Positions 10,271 through 15,143 of a stretch of 64,000 nucleotides of DNA are shown here, piece after piece. Position numbers and translations under genes: made by a program. Numbering within the stretch: the stretch's first letter is position 1; each line of letters opens with the position of its first letter. The stretch is from Lentibacter algarum. Its GTDB lineage: Bacteria; Pseudomonadota; Alphaproteobacteria; Rhodobacterales; Rhodobacteraceae. The notes beneath the pieces were generated by a model that had not been told where the DNA came from, did not search any database, and worked only from the letters and a program-made list of their open reading frames with translations. The stretch spans positions 1 to 64,000 of the forward strand of contig NZ_JAHKQI010000005.1 of NCBI RefSeq assembly GCF_018860975.1. The letters run 5' to 3'.

Positions 10271-11356
10271 ATGTCTATTCTTTTTGAGCCCACAAACCTT
10301 GGTCGCTACACGGTCCCAAACCGGATCATCATGGCCCCAATGAGCCGCAATCGCGCGCGCAAAGACGGCGTCGTGACAGATGTTGTCGCAGACTACTACG
10401 GTCAACGCGCCACCGCAGGTTTGATCATTTCGGAATCGATCATGGTGAATGATTGGGCCAACGGAATGTGTGCCCCTGGCCTGTACAACGCCGAACAAAT
10501 AGCCGCGTGGAAAACCGTCACGGACAGGGTTCACGAAAAAGGTGGTCTGATTTTCGCGCAGCTTTGGCATGCGGGTCGCGCGGCACATGACTCTCTAATG
10601 CCAGAGGGGCGCGATTGCGCTGGACCTTCTGCGATTGGCATCAGCCGCGAGATCATGACATTTCAGGGACCGATTGCCGCAACACCGCCGCGCGCGCTGA
10701 CATTGGACGAAATTTCCGAGCTGCGCACCGACTTTGCACAGGCGGCCAAGAACGCCCTAGAGGCCGGGTTTGATGGTGTCGAAATTCATGCCGCCGCCGG
10801 CTATTTGATTGACCAGTTTTTGCAAGATGGCGCCAACCAACGAGACGACATCTACGGTGGCTCGGCCGCAAACCGTTATCGGTTCCTGAATGAAATCACC
10901 GACGACGCAATTGCCATATGGGGTTCTGATCGCGTTGGCGTGCGGCTGTCGCCAAAATCCGATTTCAATGACATGCATGACAGTGACCCTGTCGCGACAT
11001 TTACCCATGTGATCAGTGCCTTAAATACCCTGAACCTGGCGTATCTGCACCTCAGCGAACGCCTGCCATTTGTGCCGCCCAATCCCGAAGATGCCGTTGT
11101 CATGGACGCATTGCGCAAACATTGGGATGGCCCGTTAATTTCAAACGGTGACTTTGACGCGCAAGAAGGGGCAGCCCACATTGACGCTGGCAAGGCGACG
11201 ATGATTTCCTATGGGCGGCCATTCATTTCCAATCCAGATCTCCCTGCGCGTTTCAAGGCCTCAGCGGAACTGACTGCGATGGACCCCGCGACAATCTACG
11301 GCGGCGATGCGCGCGGATACACGGATTACCCGCCTCTTGCTGAAGGTTCATTGTAA
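10271..11356 (+). CDS. Old yellow enzyme family ene-reductase (NemA-like), atypical active site
   Basis: A 361-residue FMN-dependent TIM-barrel reductase that reduces activated C=C bonds with NAD(P)H. OYE marks include the N-terminus LFEPTNLGRYTVPNRIIMAP, QLWHAGRAAH near residue 100, and NQRDDIYGGSAANR. The active-site motif, usually H-x-A-H/N-G-Y-L, reads IHAAAGYL, so His173 is kept but the partner His/Asn at 176 is Ala. This may change substrate binding (the pair clamps carbonyl or nitro groups in OYE enzymes). It ends the TetR-linked operon, after a 102-bp gap. Confidence 0.88.
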   Translation: MSILFEPTNLGRYTVPNRIIMAPMSRNRARKDGVVTDVVADYYGQRATAGLIISESIMVNDWANGMCAPGLYNAEQIAAWKTVTDRVHEKGGLIFAQLWHAGRAAHDSLMPEGRDCAGPSAIGISREIMTFQGPIAATPPRALTLDEISELRTDFAQAAKNALEAGFDGVEIHAAAGYLIDQFLQDGANQRDDIYGGSAANRYRFLNEITDDAIAIWGSDRVGVRLSPKSDFNDMHDSDPVATFTHVISALNTLNLAYLHLSERLPFVPPNPEDAVVMDALRKHWDGPLISNGDFDAQEGAAHIDAGKATMISYGRPFISNPDLPARFKASAELTAMDPATIYGGDARGYTDYPPLAEGSL

Positions 11357-11526: not shown

Positions 11527-11757
11527 CTATCGGAACTCAGAGACCCCCGGTTGGATAAGCTCTTTTGCAACCCCGTGACCGGAATGGATTGCGGCCTGTA
11601 TCATCCCTGGAACCAAACAATCCCCGATAACTTTGACGTTTGTTTGCGACCCTGTGGCCTGAAATTCTGATGCCAAATTGTTGTTTGGCAAACGGGCCCC
11701 AACAAAGACCAATGTTCCAGCATCCCGTGATTTTTCAACCTCAACGGCATAGGAATT
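11527..11757 (-). pseudogene. C-terminal fragment of a large NADH:flavin oxidoreductase (OYE-pyridine nucleotide reductase fusion type)
   Basis: On the minus strand the frame reads DAGTLVFVGARLPNNNLASE, then VKVIGDCLVPGMIQAAIHSG and HGVAKEL before a stop. This matches the C-terminal dinucleotide-binding end (xVIGDxxAPGxIxxAVxxGH) of 2,4-dienoyl-CoA-reductase / trimethylamine-dehydrogenase-type flavoproteins. The upstream 500-600 residues of such an enzyme are missing. The frame runs straight into antisense sequence of a transposase fragment near 11757-11763, which marks a deletion or insertion junction. It is a gene relic. Confidence 0.65.
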
Positions 11758-11763
11758 CAGGAA

Positions 11764-11931
11764 GCTCACCGTTCTGATCAGCAAGAGTTCTATCAACTTC
11801 TTAGCTACAAAGGCGACGTCGATCTGGAGGCTAAACTTGGCGAATGGGAGCGGTTCTACAACTTCGCCAGACCCCACGGCGCGCATAACGGTCAGACCCC
11901 TTACGAAGCGCTCAGAGACAAGCTACAACAA
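11764..11931 (+). pseudogene. C-terminal fragment of an IS481-type transposase
   Basis: In frame with 11761 the translation reads HRSDQQEFYQLLSYKGDVDL, EAKLGEWERFYNFARPHGAH and NGQTPYEALRDKL. This is the conserved end of the rve integrase core of IS481/IS3-like transposases (SHRSDQxEFY, ExFYNxxRPHGAxxGxTPYEAL). The catalytic domain upstream is gone. The fragment abuts a truncated flavin-oxidoreductase relic on its left and the start of the phosphoribosyltransferase gene on its right, so it records a transposon-associated rearrangement. Confidence 0.8.
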
Positions 11932-11968
11932 CGAGGAAAGTGCCCTGAGGGTCTGTCCATTTTACAAA

Positions 11969-13369
11969 ATGATGAGCGACAAGAGAATGTTCCGAGATCT
12001 CTGGGAAAGAACCAAGACCGTTGCCGCAACCTATACCGGCACCTTCATTGTCGTCATGTTTCTCAATCAGCTGTTGTTCTTCGGGCTTTGCCTCAACCCG
12101 ATTTGCCTTGTCGCCGCCATGCCGCATGTTTTGCTTATCACTGTGGCAGTTGGCAGTTGGCTCAATAAGATAGGGAACTGGGGCAAGGGCGACGCTGACA
12201 CAGCAACGCAAGGGCAGCAGGCCGATCAACCAAGCATTCCGCAAAAGATCGAAGGCGCTTTAGACGCAGTCAATGACAGCCTTGAGACGGCAAACAAACG
12301 CCTGACCTTGTTTAACATCAAGCTCGAAGCCAAAGGCGTCTACTTCGCTGAAAAATGCCTTGTTCAGTCGCGCCTTGAGGTCGCAGAAAGTAGGATGAAG
12401 CTCGGCAAACGCTTTAAGCAAGATCCTGAATTCAAGCAAATCAATGCGCGTGTAGAACGTCAGTTCCAAGATGCAGGAGAGAACAAACCTCAAGCTGAGC
12501 CAGAGCTCAAAACTGTTGCGAGATACATAGTTCCGCAAGGGTTGGAACAGCTGGGTGACAAGGCGCAAATCCTTGGCGAGCTCAATGACATCGCTTTGGC
12601 GCATTACGGATTTCTAACCGATGTTAAGCGCAAACTTGATAAGAACGCCGAGCTGACCGAAGCGTTTGAAATGCTCATGAATGAGGAACGCGCCGAGCAG
12701 ATCTTTGCCTATATCATGGCAATTTCTCCGCCAGATGCGCAGCGGCATGACACCCGCAAGGAAGGCAACCAGACAGTCGCCGGTCTCTATGGGTCTCTGT
12801 CAAACGAGCTGTTCGGCAATTGGAAAGGTGGCTTTGCGTGTGACGTTCACACAGTGCACAGCCGGCATACGGGCGTTGACGCTTTCGGGCATGACACATG
12901 GGACAACACCCGAAGCAAAATCGGAGAGTTGGTTTACCAGCTGAAGTATCTAAATGAGTTCTCAATTGTTCCCGAGATCACCAAACTCATTCGCAATCAC
13001 ATAACTATTGAAGGGTTTGATTATATCATCCCCGTTCCCGCTTCTAAGCCCCGTGAGAGACAGCCGGTTGATGCCGTCGCGCTGGCTTTGGGTGAACAAC
13101 TCGATACTCGTGTGCTCACCGGGTTTTTAGGCAACTCCGGTGAGATTGAACTCAAAACAATCACTGATCCGGCTGCACGAGAAACTGCGCTAAATGCAAA
13201 CATCAAGGCGATCGGAGGCGAAGACATTTCAGGGAAGAAGGTCCTGCTACTGGACGATGTCTATAGATCCGGTGCAACATTACGCGCATGCTGTTCTGTG
13301 CTAAAAGGGGCAGAGAATGCGGGTGAAGTTTGGGTTCTGACAATGACACGAACGCGGAAAAACATATGA
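11969..13369 (+). CDS. Membrane-anchored protein with C-terminal ComF-like phosphoribosyltransferase domain
   Basis: About 466 residues. Two N-terminal transmembrane helices (about 18-42 and 45-65) are followed by a soluble, helix-rich, lysine/glutamate-rich middle (about 90-290), probably partly coiled coil. A C-terminal type-I phosphoribosyltransferase domain follows: RSKIGELVYQLKY, GFDYIIPVPAS and the PRPP loop VLLLDDVYRSGATL. The PRTase part resembles ComF but lacks its zinc-finger N-terminus. The start is uncertain: ATGs at 11969, 11972 and 11987 are possible with weak ribosome-binding sites, and the 11837 ATG lies within IS481 sequence. It overlaps the SLOG gene by 4 bp (ATGA). The function is unknown; a nucleotide-type signalling or defence role is inferred. 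Confidence 0.78.
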   Translation: MMSDKRMFRDLWERTKTVAATYTGTFIVVMFLNQLLFFGLCLNPICLVAAMPHVLLITVAVGSWLNKIGNWGKGDADTATQGQQADQPSIPQKIEGALDAVNDSLETANKRLTLFNIKLEAKGVYFAEKCLVQSRLEVAESRMKLGKRFKQDPEFKQINARVERQFQDAGENKPQAEPELKTVARYIVPQGLEQLGDKAQILGELNDIALAHYGFLTDVKRKLDKNAELTEAFEMLMNEERAEQIFAYIMAISPPDAQRHDTRKEGNQTVAGLYGSLSNELFGNWKGGFACDVHTVHSRHTGVDAFGHDTWDNTRSKIGELVYQLKYLNEFSIVPEITKLIRNHITIEGFDYIIPVPASKPRERQPVDAVALALGEQLDTRVLTGFLGNSGEIELKTITDPAARETALNANIKAIGGEDISGKKVLLLDDVYRSGATLRACCSVLKGAENAGEVWVLTMTRTRKNI

Positions 13370-13926
13370 ACACAGTCTTTCTGTCGGGGTCGCGCAAACT
13401 CTCTCGACTTAACGGAGCAATCAAAGAGCGCCTTCAAGCGATCATCGACCAGCAGCTTACTGTGATCATTGGTGATGCAAACGGAGCCGACAAGGCGATG
13501 CAGTCCTATCTGGCCCAAGTCGGCTATCCGAACGTTACCGTCTTTTTTGCGGGCGATACCTGTCGAAATGTGATCGGGCCTTGGTCAGCGGTGAGAATCT
13601 CTGTTGATTCCAAACTCAAAGGCCGCGCCATCCACACTGAAAAAGACAGGGCGATGGCCGCGAAAGCAGATTTTGCTTTGGTTCTCTGGGATAGAGAAAG
13701 CATTGGCTCTTTAACCAACGTTTGCGAGATGGTGCTTCTAAACAAAAAGGCTAAAGTCTATGTGTCTCCGGCCCAGAGCTTTGTCAGTGTAAGCAGAGCT
13801 GAAGATATCTCAGCTCTGCTAGAAGGCTGCACTCCAGAGGAGGTCAGCGGTTTTGAGGCTGCGCCGATCCTGGGTCGACACCTTCGAGCGCTGGGAATCT
13901 CAGCACAGTCAGGCTTTGATTTCTAA
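13366..13926 (+). CDS. SLOG-superfamily (YspA/YpsA-like) nucleotide-binding protein
   Basis: A 186-residue Rossmann-like protein. GSRK at 8-11, IGDANGADKAMQSYL at about 35-49 and DFALVLWDRESIGSLTN at about 100-115 match the pattern of YspA-like SLOG proteins (GxR, vxGxAxGxD, WDGxSxGT). SLOG domains bind or process nucleotide-related ligands, such as cytokinin-activating LOG enzymes and sensors in bacterial conflict systems. The start overlaps the upstream PRTase stop (ATGA), so the two proteins are probably made together. The C-terminal 50 residues match nothing I recognise. An in-frame ATG at 13330 is rejected because it lies inside the upstream gene. Confidence 0.75.
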   Translation: MNTVFLSGSRKLSRLNGAIKERLQAIIDQQLTVIIGDANGADKAMQSYLAQVGYPNVTVFFAGDTCRNVIGPWSAVRISVDSKLKGRAIHTEKDRAMAAKADFALVLWDRESIGSLTNVCEMVLLNKKAKVYVSPAQSFVSVSRAEDISALLEGCTPEEVSGFEAAPILGRHLRALGISAQSGFDF

Positions 13927-13936
13927 CAGACGAAAC

Positions 13937-15046
13937 TTACTTCAACTCCTTCAGCATTTCCTTCTCATACGCAGCCAGCTTCTCGAAGTTGCCGTCAGCA
14001 ACTTGGTTTGCCCATTCGGGGTTTGCGATCAGAGCGCGGCCTACAGCAACCAAGTCAAATTCGTCTTGCTCCAACCGTGTTATCAGGTTGTCGATGCTTG
14101 CGGGCTCGGCTGCATTGAAGTTTGCGCTGCCGTCTTCAGGCAAAAAGTCGGCGTTCAAGCCAACCGACCCAACTGTAATCGCTGGCTTGCCTGTCAGTTT
14201 GCGTGTCCAGCCGGCGAGGTTTAGGTCGCTGCCTTCAAACTCCGGCTCCCAAAAGCGCCGTGTAGAGCAGTGAAAAATGTCAACACCAGCGTCACAGAGC
14301 GGGCCGAGAAAATCGCTCAGGGCTTCAGGTGTTTCACACAGTCGGGCCGTGTAATCCTGCTGTTTCCACTGCGAAAACCGAAAAATGATAGGGAAGTCTT
14401 CGCCAACTGCGGCACGACAGGCCGCGACAACTTCCAAAGCAAACTTCGAGCGTGCAGCCAGATCACCGCCATAAGAATCGTCGCGCTGGTTTGTTCCGTC
14501 CCAAAAAAACTGATCAATCAAATACCCATGCGCACCGTGCAACTCGATTGCATCAAAGCCAACGTCTTTGGCGTCTGCCGCCGCCTGAGCAAATGCTGCG
14601 ACAACGTCATCAATGTCGTCTTGGGTCATCGCATGGCCAGTAACTTTACCGGGGGCAACCATGCCACTTGGGCTGTGGCCAGGTGTGTCGCCACCCGGCA
14701 TAACGCCCGGGCGTCGAATTGCCCCGACGTGCCACAACTGCGGAGCAATCTTGCCGCCTTCAGCATGCACGGCATCCACAACCCGTTTCCAACCTGCCAA
14801 TGCATCGTTACCAGCAAAGGCTGGCACATTGGGGTAGCCACTTGCTGCTTTATGCCCGACAAAGGTGCCTTCTGTTATGATCAGCCCAACACCACCCGCG
14901 GCACGCCGGCGATAGTAATCAACGACCAGATCATTGGGAACGTTTCCGGGAGAATACGTCCGTGTCATCGGCGCCATAACAATACGGTTTTTTAGGTTCA
15001 ACTTGCCAAGCTCGGCGGGGCGAAAAAGAGTATCAACATTGCTCAT
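13937..15046 (-). CDS. Old yellow enzyme family NADH:flavin oxidoreductase
   Basis: A 369-residue FMN-dependent ene-reductase with the canonical active-site motif IELHGAHGYLIDQFF, retaining both histidines, plus NQRDDSYGGDLAARSKFA and QLWHVGAIRRP. The ATG at 15046 is chosen because AAGGA lies 8 bases before it; the frame extends to a TTG at 15061. It is convergent with the SLOG gene (10-bp gap) and divergent from RNase D. It shares only the fold with the OYE 3 kb to the left, so it is a separate lineage rather than a fresh duplicate. Confidence 0.92.
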   Translation of the reverse strand: MSNVDTLFRPAELGKLNLKNRIVMAPMTRTYSPGNVPNDLVVDYYRRRAAGGVGLIITEGTFVGHKAASGYPNVPAFAGNDALAGWKRVVDAVHAEGGKIAPQLWHVGAIRRPGVMPGGDTPGHSPSGMVAPGKVTGHAMTQDDIDDVVAAFAQAAADAKDVGFDAIELHGAHGYLIDQFFWDGTNQRDDSYGGDLAARSKFALEVVAACRAAVGEDFPIIFRFSQWKQQDYTARLCETPEALSDFLGPLCDAGVDIFHCSTRRFWEPEFEGSDLNLAGWTRKLTGKPAITVGSVGLNADFLPEDGSANFNAAEPASIDNLITRLEQDEFDLVAVGRALIANPEWANQVADGNFEKLAAYEKEMLKELK

Positions 15047-15143
15047 GGCATAGTCCTTCAAGATGCGTTGTTTTGTGGTGAGCCTAACAAGCCCACAAAG
15101 CAGCGCAATTGTTCCGCTGGGTTACAACACAGGCAACGCTTGC

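Follow-up and report, generated by a model that had tools for sequence, protein, structure and literature searches.

A putative toxin-antitoxin pair in Lentibacter algarum couples a ComF-like phosphoribosyltransferase to a predicted two-helix membrane anchor shared with other effector types

A two-gene cassette found in 64,000 nucleotides of Lentibacter algarum DNA (the whole stretch analysed, hereafter the window) probably encodes a membrane-tethered toxin-antitoxin pair of the RqlHI/PsyrTA/ShosTA kind. The first gene codes for a phosphoribosyltransferase (PRTase) protein with a hydrophobic hairpin at its N-terminus and the second for a small protein of predicted SLOG fold (Table 1). The pair itself is a variant of a known toxin-antitoxin kind; what is new is the evidence that its anchor is shared by unrelated effectors.

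Table 1. Features of the PRTase-SLOG cassette, in window coordinates.
Feature	Coordinates	Strand	Remarks
Membrane-anchored PRTase, putative toxin	11969..13369	+	466 aa from the first ATG; 460 aa if the start is 11987
Two-helix anchor module, residues 7-78	11987..12202	+	Conserved motif N-Q, C-x4-C, A-x-P-H
Middle, residues 79-279	12203..12805	+	Helical by sequence reading
PRTase domain, residues 280-466	12806..13366	+	PRPP-loop DD intact
SLOG-fold protein, putative antitoxin, 186 aa	13366..13926	+	Predicted fold
IS remnant, transposase 3' end	11767..11974	+	IS481-type by reading; abuts the toxin start

The PRTase protein is tripartite, with a hydrophobic hairpin whose hydropathy peak covers residues 22-65, a middle judged helical from its sequence, and a PRTase domain that begins at about residue 280. 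Stand-alone PRTase relatives (~191-197 aa) start within a few residues of residue 280, so the window protein is an N-terminal fusion. The original prediction had proposed a two-helix N-terminal anchor, an ATGA overlap between the two genes, a PRTase domain in the first protein and a SLOG-like fold in the second; the hairpin and the overlap are confirmed, and both domain assignments are upheld by the profile and fold matches that follow.

On profile evidence the C-terminal domain is a ComF-like, toxin-type PRTase. It matches the PADLOC profiles PsyrT (2.5e-11, aligned at 537-686 of its 689 positions) and ShosT (1.3e-9), and the comF model at 1.6e-7, far under the curated cut-off of that model; with Pfam Pribosyltran it scores 23.3 bits, under the 26.3-bit cut-off. 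Within a family of 11 PRTases the PsyrT profile matches all members and the ShosT profile 10, and an R-x2-QPV stretch is conserved in all the aligned proteins, as is the DD of the PRPP loop; the PRPP-binding acidic pair is thus intact in the window protein. No RecQ-like helicase is present in it, as a Pfam search at E <= 10 gives Pribosyltran alone. Sequence searches of solved structures returned general PRTases only, with no close relative of either protein of the pair. An identity with ComF and DprA of natural competence was also considered and rejected, as the association with a short SLOG gene on mobile elements is more in line with a toxin-antitoxin pair.

The predicted fold of the partner is the Rossmann-like fold of the SLOG superfamily and lies close to YpsA (the top fold match), DprA and ShosA. 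Among the matched structures we take YpsA, MCP and LOG to be SLOG proteins; ligand-bound structures of ThsA and TRPM2 are matched as well. A Pfam YpsA score of 15.6 bits against the curated 27.7 places the protein outside the YpsA family proper. It has no PADLOC match at E <= 1, and in a SLOG family of 14 members three match PsyrA (best 0.0053) and two ShosA (best 0.0026). At alignment positions N69 and G104, which nearly all other members keep, the window protein deviates. Some SLOG partners elsewhere are extended at the C-terminus by what reads as a helix-turn-helix (HTH); their annotation is 'addiction module antidote protein' or HTH regulator.

The pair is not of a new kind. Recurrence, which the original prediction had named as a check on its idea of a system, is seen on plasmids, viral contigs and chromosomes, where a shorter PRTase accompanies the same SLOG protein. 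Six of 385 sampled genomes of the class carry the SLOG protein, the window genome included, and in all five others the PRTase gene precedes it. Viral contigs yielded 36 SLOG relatives, 20 close (E <= 1e-27) and 16 distant. A PRTase lies directly upstream of 19 of the 20 close relatives (17 of these calls were made also by a PRTase search and two judged from the C-terminal motif), and the twentieth is at a contig end; none of the 16 distant relatives is on a contig with a PRTase match. Taken from the PRTase side, all 22 viral-contig loci are accompanied by a SLOG gene: the contigs of 17 contain a SLOG match, and for the remaining five a SLOG-like frame was read directly downstream.

Plasmid records with a SLOG match number 95, and among the 60 listed a PRTase is immediately upstream in 51, many of them near-identical Klebsiella plasmids that do not amount to 51 independent cases. 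The other nine comprise six rhizobial-type or Methylobacterium plasmids without a listed PRTase and three Enterobacter plasmids, whose PRTase may be among four unlisted PRTase records. Three of the six were inspected and have no PRTase annotated adjacent to the SLOG gene, in records whose annotation is incomplete. Of the 64 plasmid PRTase records 60 are listed, and nine of them have no SLOG gene among the 60 listed SLOG records, yet three of the nine (L025, L027 and L029) do have one when read. The PRTases inspected beside SLOG genes stand alone, in frames of ~191-238 aa. The anchored PRTase was found only in the window, and a genome-contig scan, which reaches close relatives only, gave no relative of the whole protein; this suggests that the fusion of anchor and PRTase is rare.

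Two further observations concern the SLOG genes themselves. The 289-aa products of a viral-contig gene (L070:4001-4867) and a Paracoccus plasmid gene (L025:6764-7630), each of which sits behind its own PRTase, are identical at 275 of 289 positions, suggesting recent transfer. Three SLOG relatives on rhizobial-type plasmids (L030:3001-3534, L031:3001-3537 and L032:3001-3534) lie beside DUF2493/DUF736 genes without an annotated PRTase neighbour, and are possibly free-standing antidotes against PRTase toxins of a recipient, that is, an anti-defence function.

The anchor is a conserved, rare module, and together with its spread over effector types it forms the new part of the finding. Its consensus is NQLLFFG-C-NPIC-AAMPHV, identity between distant records reaches 83%, and an alignment of 14 sequences has nine invariant positions, among them N33-Q34, C41, C46, A50 and P52-H53. 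The window protein has the invariant N-Q, C, C and A-x-P-H positions and matches the anchor profile; a profile built without it scores it at 111.6 bits, against 13.7 for the best of 2000 shuffles. We found no description of this anchor in the open-licence literature, where it may go under other wording.

With the N-terminal 280 residues as query, 390 genomes of the order gave a single match besides the window, in G203, where a 948-aa protein, a UvrD-type helicase with Top1-type zinc ribbons, shows 73% identity over residues 7-79. A genome-contig scan with three anchors returned 13 loci, seven at E <= 1e-29 and 72-83% identity and six at 31-53%. The seven records are named Rhodobacteraceae, Neptunicoccus, gammaproteobacterium (MAG), Bacteroidia (MAG), PS1 clade (MAG), methanotrophic symbiont and Pseudoalteromonas, and the names on the MAG records may be wrong; one locus (L047) is apparently from the same genome as G203. 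The set of 15 anchored proteins considered below is made up of the 13 scan loci, a Pseudoalteromonas plasmid protein, which was the only match among the plasmids searched, and the window protein. The anchor was absent from the viral contigs and phage records searched. The anchor profile detected two of 398 genomes in a phylum sample, one of them the window genome, and two of 293 in another order, of which one was already known and the other matches weakly and has an internal stop. Genome surveys added two anchor-like frames, one of 74 aa with the anchor alone (G1095) and one weak and interrupted (G1410). Run over 10046 frames from 123 loci at E <= 0.01, the profile recovered only the 13 scan loci, the Pseudoalteromonas plasmid, G203, G1095 and copies of the window. 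At the same threshold 15 other PRTase loci showed no anchor; with lengths of ~3.4 kb or less, they may not include the distal part of long frames such as the one of 747 aa in G130. A 74-aa stand-alone relative of the anchor (L060:1447-1671) is divergent from a frame that reads as RadC-like.

Ten of the 15 anchored proteins, counting the PRTase, carry a part linked to nucleic acids. A UvrD helicase with Top1-type zinc ribbons is attached in three (L047 and L051 by Pfam, L046 by near-identity to L047), DarT in two (E about 1e-37), a Top1-type zinc ribbon alone in four (L034, L050, L054 and L055, with L050 slightly under the cut-off) and a PRTase in one, the window protein. Nothing was recognised in the other five: a domain scan found no effector domain in L048 (463 aa) or in L053, which runs off its contig, and reading found none in L056 (107 aa), L057 and L058 (~60 aa, anchor only). 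The proportion of 10 in 15 is suggestive rather than statistical.

In DarTG the DarT gene is followed by a macro-domain gene. A macro-domain gene lies directly downstream of the anchored DarT at both loci (L049:2646-4357 and L052:5983-8407; 4.6e-15 and 3.8e-12), which would make these membrane-anchored DarTG-like pairs; ordinary DarT is not known to carry this anchor. They share the anchor with the window pair and differ from it in toxin domain and in having a macro-domain partner. Genes of the type I methylase/specificity kind are found behind the DarT pair at L049 and ~2 kb upstream of it at L052, and an Eco57I-type methylase gene is ~2.4 kb from L050. The anchored 463-aa protein at L048:5917-7308 may be transposon cargo, given TnsA-, TniB- and TniQ-like genes within ~6 kb. 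The neighbours of L046 and L051 were read and include no evident partner gene. Together these loci suggest one membrane-targeting module common to DNA-acting conflict proteins, perhaps posted where foreign DNA enters.

These associations bear on a competing account, that the cassette is an ordinary PRTase-SLOG addiction module of a mobile element, whose anchor was joined on by accident, contributes nothing to sensing or defence and can do no more than lower the toxicity. In its favour, plasmids and viral contigs often carry stand-alone pairs, a single case of the anchored form was found, and the cassette lies in no evident defence island. Against this, the nine invariant positions among 14 sequences, the occurrence of the anchor on at least three other effector types and the macro-domain gene that twice stands behind it argue for selection on the anchor. 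We regard the accidental fusion as unlikely, while according it more weight than the other alternatives below.

The middle of the window protein shows one further resemblance. A Salipiger plasmid protein, which has a different two-helix N-terminus and, by Pfam, a DUF559/MTES_1575 restriction-like domain, aligns through its tail with residues 88-168 of the window protein (33% identity over 81 aa; E=2e-8 by phmmer against 9705 frames and 6e-8 by blastp against 10046 frames). The alignment gives a further connection to a DNA enzyme associated with the membrane, although its score could be raised by coiled-coil character. The Salipiger N-terminal hairpin itself is not taken to be homologous to the anchor: the motif is missing, the anchor profile gives no match and only the tail matches the middle.

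Several characterised systems can be compared with the pair, as far as the available excerpts of the papers cited describe them. The toxicity of RqlH resides in its PRTase domain and requires D663, and the DprA-like RqlI counters RqlH and physically interacts with it (PMC4670107). The window pair resembles PsyrTA and RqlHI in having a C-terminal ComF-like PRTase toxin domain within a larger protein and a DprA/SLOG-like antitoxin in the same operon, here in an overlapping gene. It is not PsyrTA proper, since PsyrT/RqlH has a fused RecQ-like helicase where the window protein has anchor and middle, and the antitoxin matches neither the PsyrA nor the ShosA profile; nor does a protein of 186 aa leave room for the HTH in which RqlI ends (PMC4670107). 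ShosT disturbs purine metabolism and ShosA binds DNA, according to a review citing Pu et al. 2025 (PMC12593503), and protection against T7 and lambda is reported for a DprA-PRTase pair encoded in a P2-like prophage hotspot (PMC9122126). The window pair differs from these: the 237 positions of the ShosT profile are too few for anchor plus middle, ShosA, at 308 residues in the PDB chain, is longer than the SLOG protein here, and the match between antitoxin sequences is very weak.

Two systems offer precedents for the membrane. SNIPE is likewise a membrane-held, DNA-acting effector, whose membrane domain keeps it off the chromosome, preventing self-harm, and places it at the site of DNA injection; it differs in having a single-pass helix, DUF4041 and a GIY-YIG nuclease, and no antitoxin is described in the available part of that paper, which also discusses Kiwa and superinfection exclusion (PMC13190303). 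ToxMR, of the membrane BECR-fold type, has been proposed as a toxin-antitoxin pair tethered to the membrane, where it may act on foreign DNA in passage; unlike the window pair, it has a RelE/ParE-superfamily toxin with a periplasmic C-terminal domain and an RHH/HTH antitoxin (PMC11980606, in excerpt).

In the mechanism we propose, the PRTase domain would act as a toxin that uses PRPP and damages DNA or the purine pool, and the SLOG protein from the overlapping gene would restrain it until a phage or other DNA intruder releases the toxin. The hairpin would fix the toxin in the inner membrane, probably with both ends cytoplasmic on a reading of the charges. The tether might then separate the toxin from the chromosome and station it at the entry point of foreign DNA, a further step taken by analogy with SNIPE and ToxMR and held at less than even confidence. 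On that reading the hairpin could be a transferable membrane-posting and possibly sensing module, swapped among unrelated DNA-acting effectors and holding toxins at the inner membrane to meet entering DNA, its conserved N-Q, cysteines and P-H reading a host or intruder factor at the entry site.

The role in phage defence or stress put forward in the original prediction gains a link through the PsyrTA and ShosTA relatives, but the cassette sits in no evident defence island. Two of 10 neighbouring proteins have PADLOC matches at E <= 1e-5 (BrxHI/DEDDh, best 2.8e-9; mad3/mad8, best 7.3e-28), in a profile set of 2023 that predates the latest systems, and we provisionally read them as housekeeping proteins, an RNase D-like exonuclease and an ABC transporter ATPase. 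Old-yellow-enzyme-like genes, 34% identical, flank the cassette at 10271-11356 and 13937-15061. The downstream one has no match at E <= 1e-60 in six other genomes of the genus, in keeping with the accessory setting that had been proposed.

The IS remnant raises the question of expression. It is 97% identical over 207 bases to a second copy in the genome, and the homology ends at 11974. Most anchored relatives start at about the equivalent of Met7 (11987), so the insertion lies a few bases before the likely start and left the anchor whole; since the IS end abuts the toxin start, expression of the pair is uncertain. The cassette could accordingly be decayed or silent, the IS having severed its promoter and left the fusion unexpressed, which is compatible with a toxin-antitoxin reading of the ancestral pair. 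Three promoter-like sites were found, a number in line with shuffles (mean 2.1, sd 1.4). Both frames are nevertheless open with the catalytic DD kept, and the promoter-like match at 11961-11988, or that in the IS remnant at 11575-11604, could serve, though such matches prove nothing. On balance we consider a silent cassette improbable.

The weakest alternative, and a highly improbable one, is that of the original prediction, in which the two proteins work at the membrane as maker (PRTase) and sensor (SLOG) of a nucleotide-like signal: SLOG domains do bind nucleotide-like ligands in ThsA and TRPM2, and the Aravind group has proposed, in the part of PMC5512222 available, that mobile-element PRTases produce or sense a nucleotide at DNA entry, but the nearest studied relatives (RqlHI, ShosTA) are toxin and antitoxin and several SLOG partners carry the HTH-like extension and antidote or regulator annotations noted above, and we prefer to read the pair as PRTase toxin and SLOG antitoxin.

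A membrane-held defence that meets DNA at its entry has been shown for SNIPE and only proposed for the RelE-type toxin pair, as far as the excerpts cited above report. A single conserved anchor joined to a PRTase toxin, to DarT and to a helicase would raise membrane posting to a principle of general reach that can be tested, and would connect the puzzling PRTase toxins with incoming DNA.
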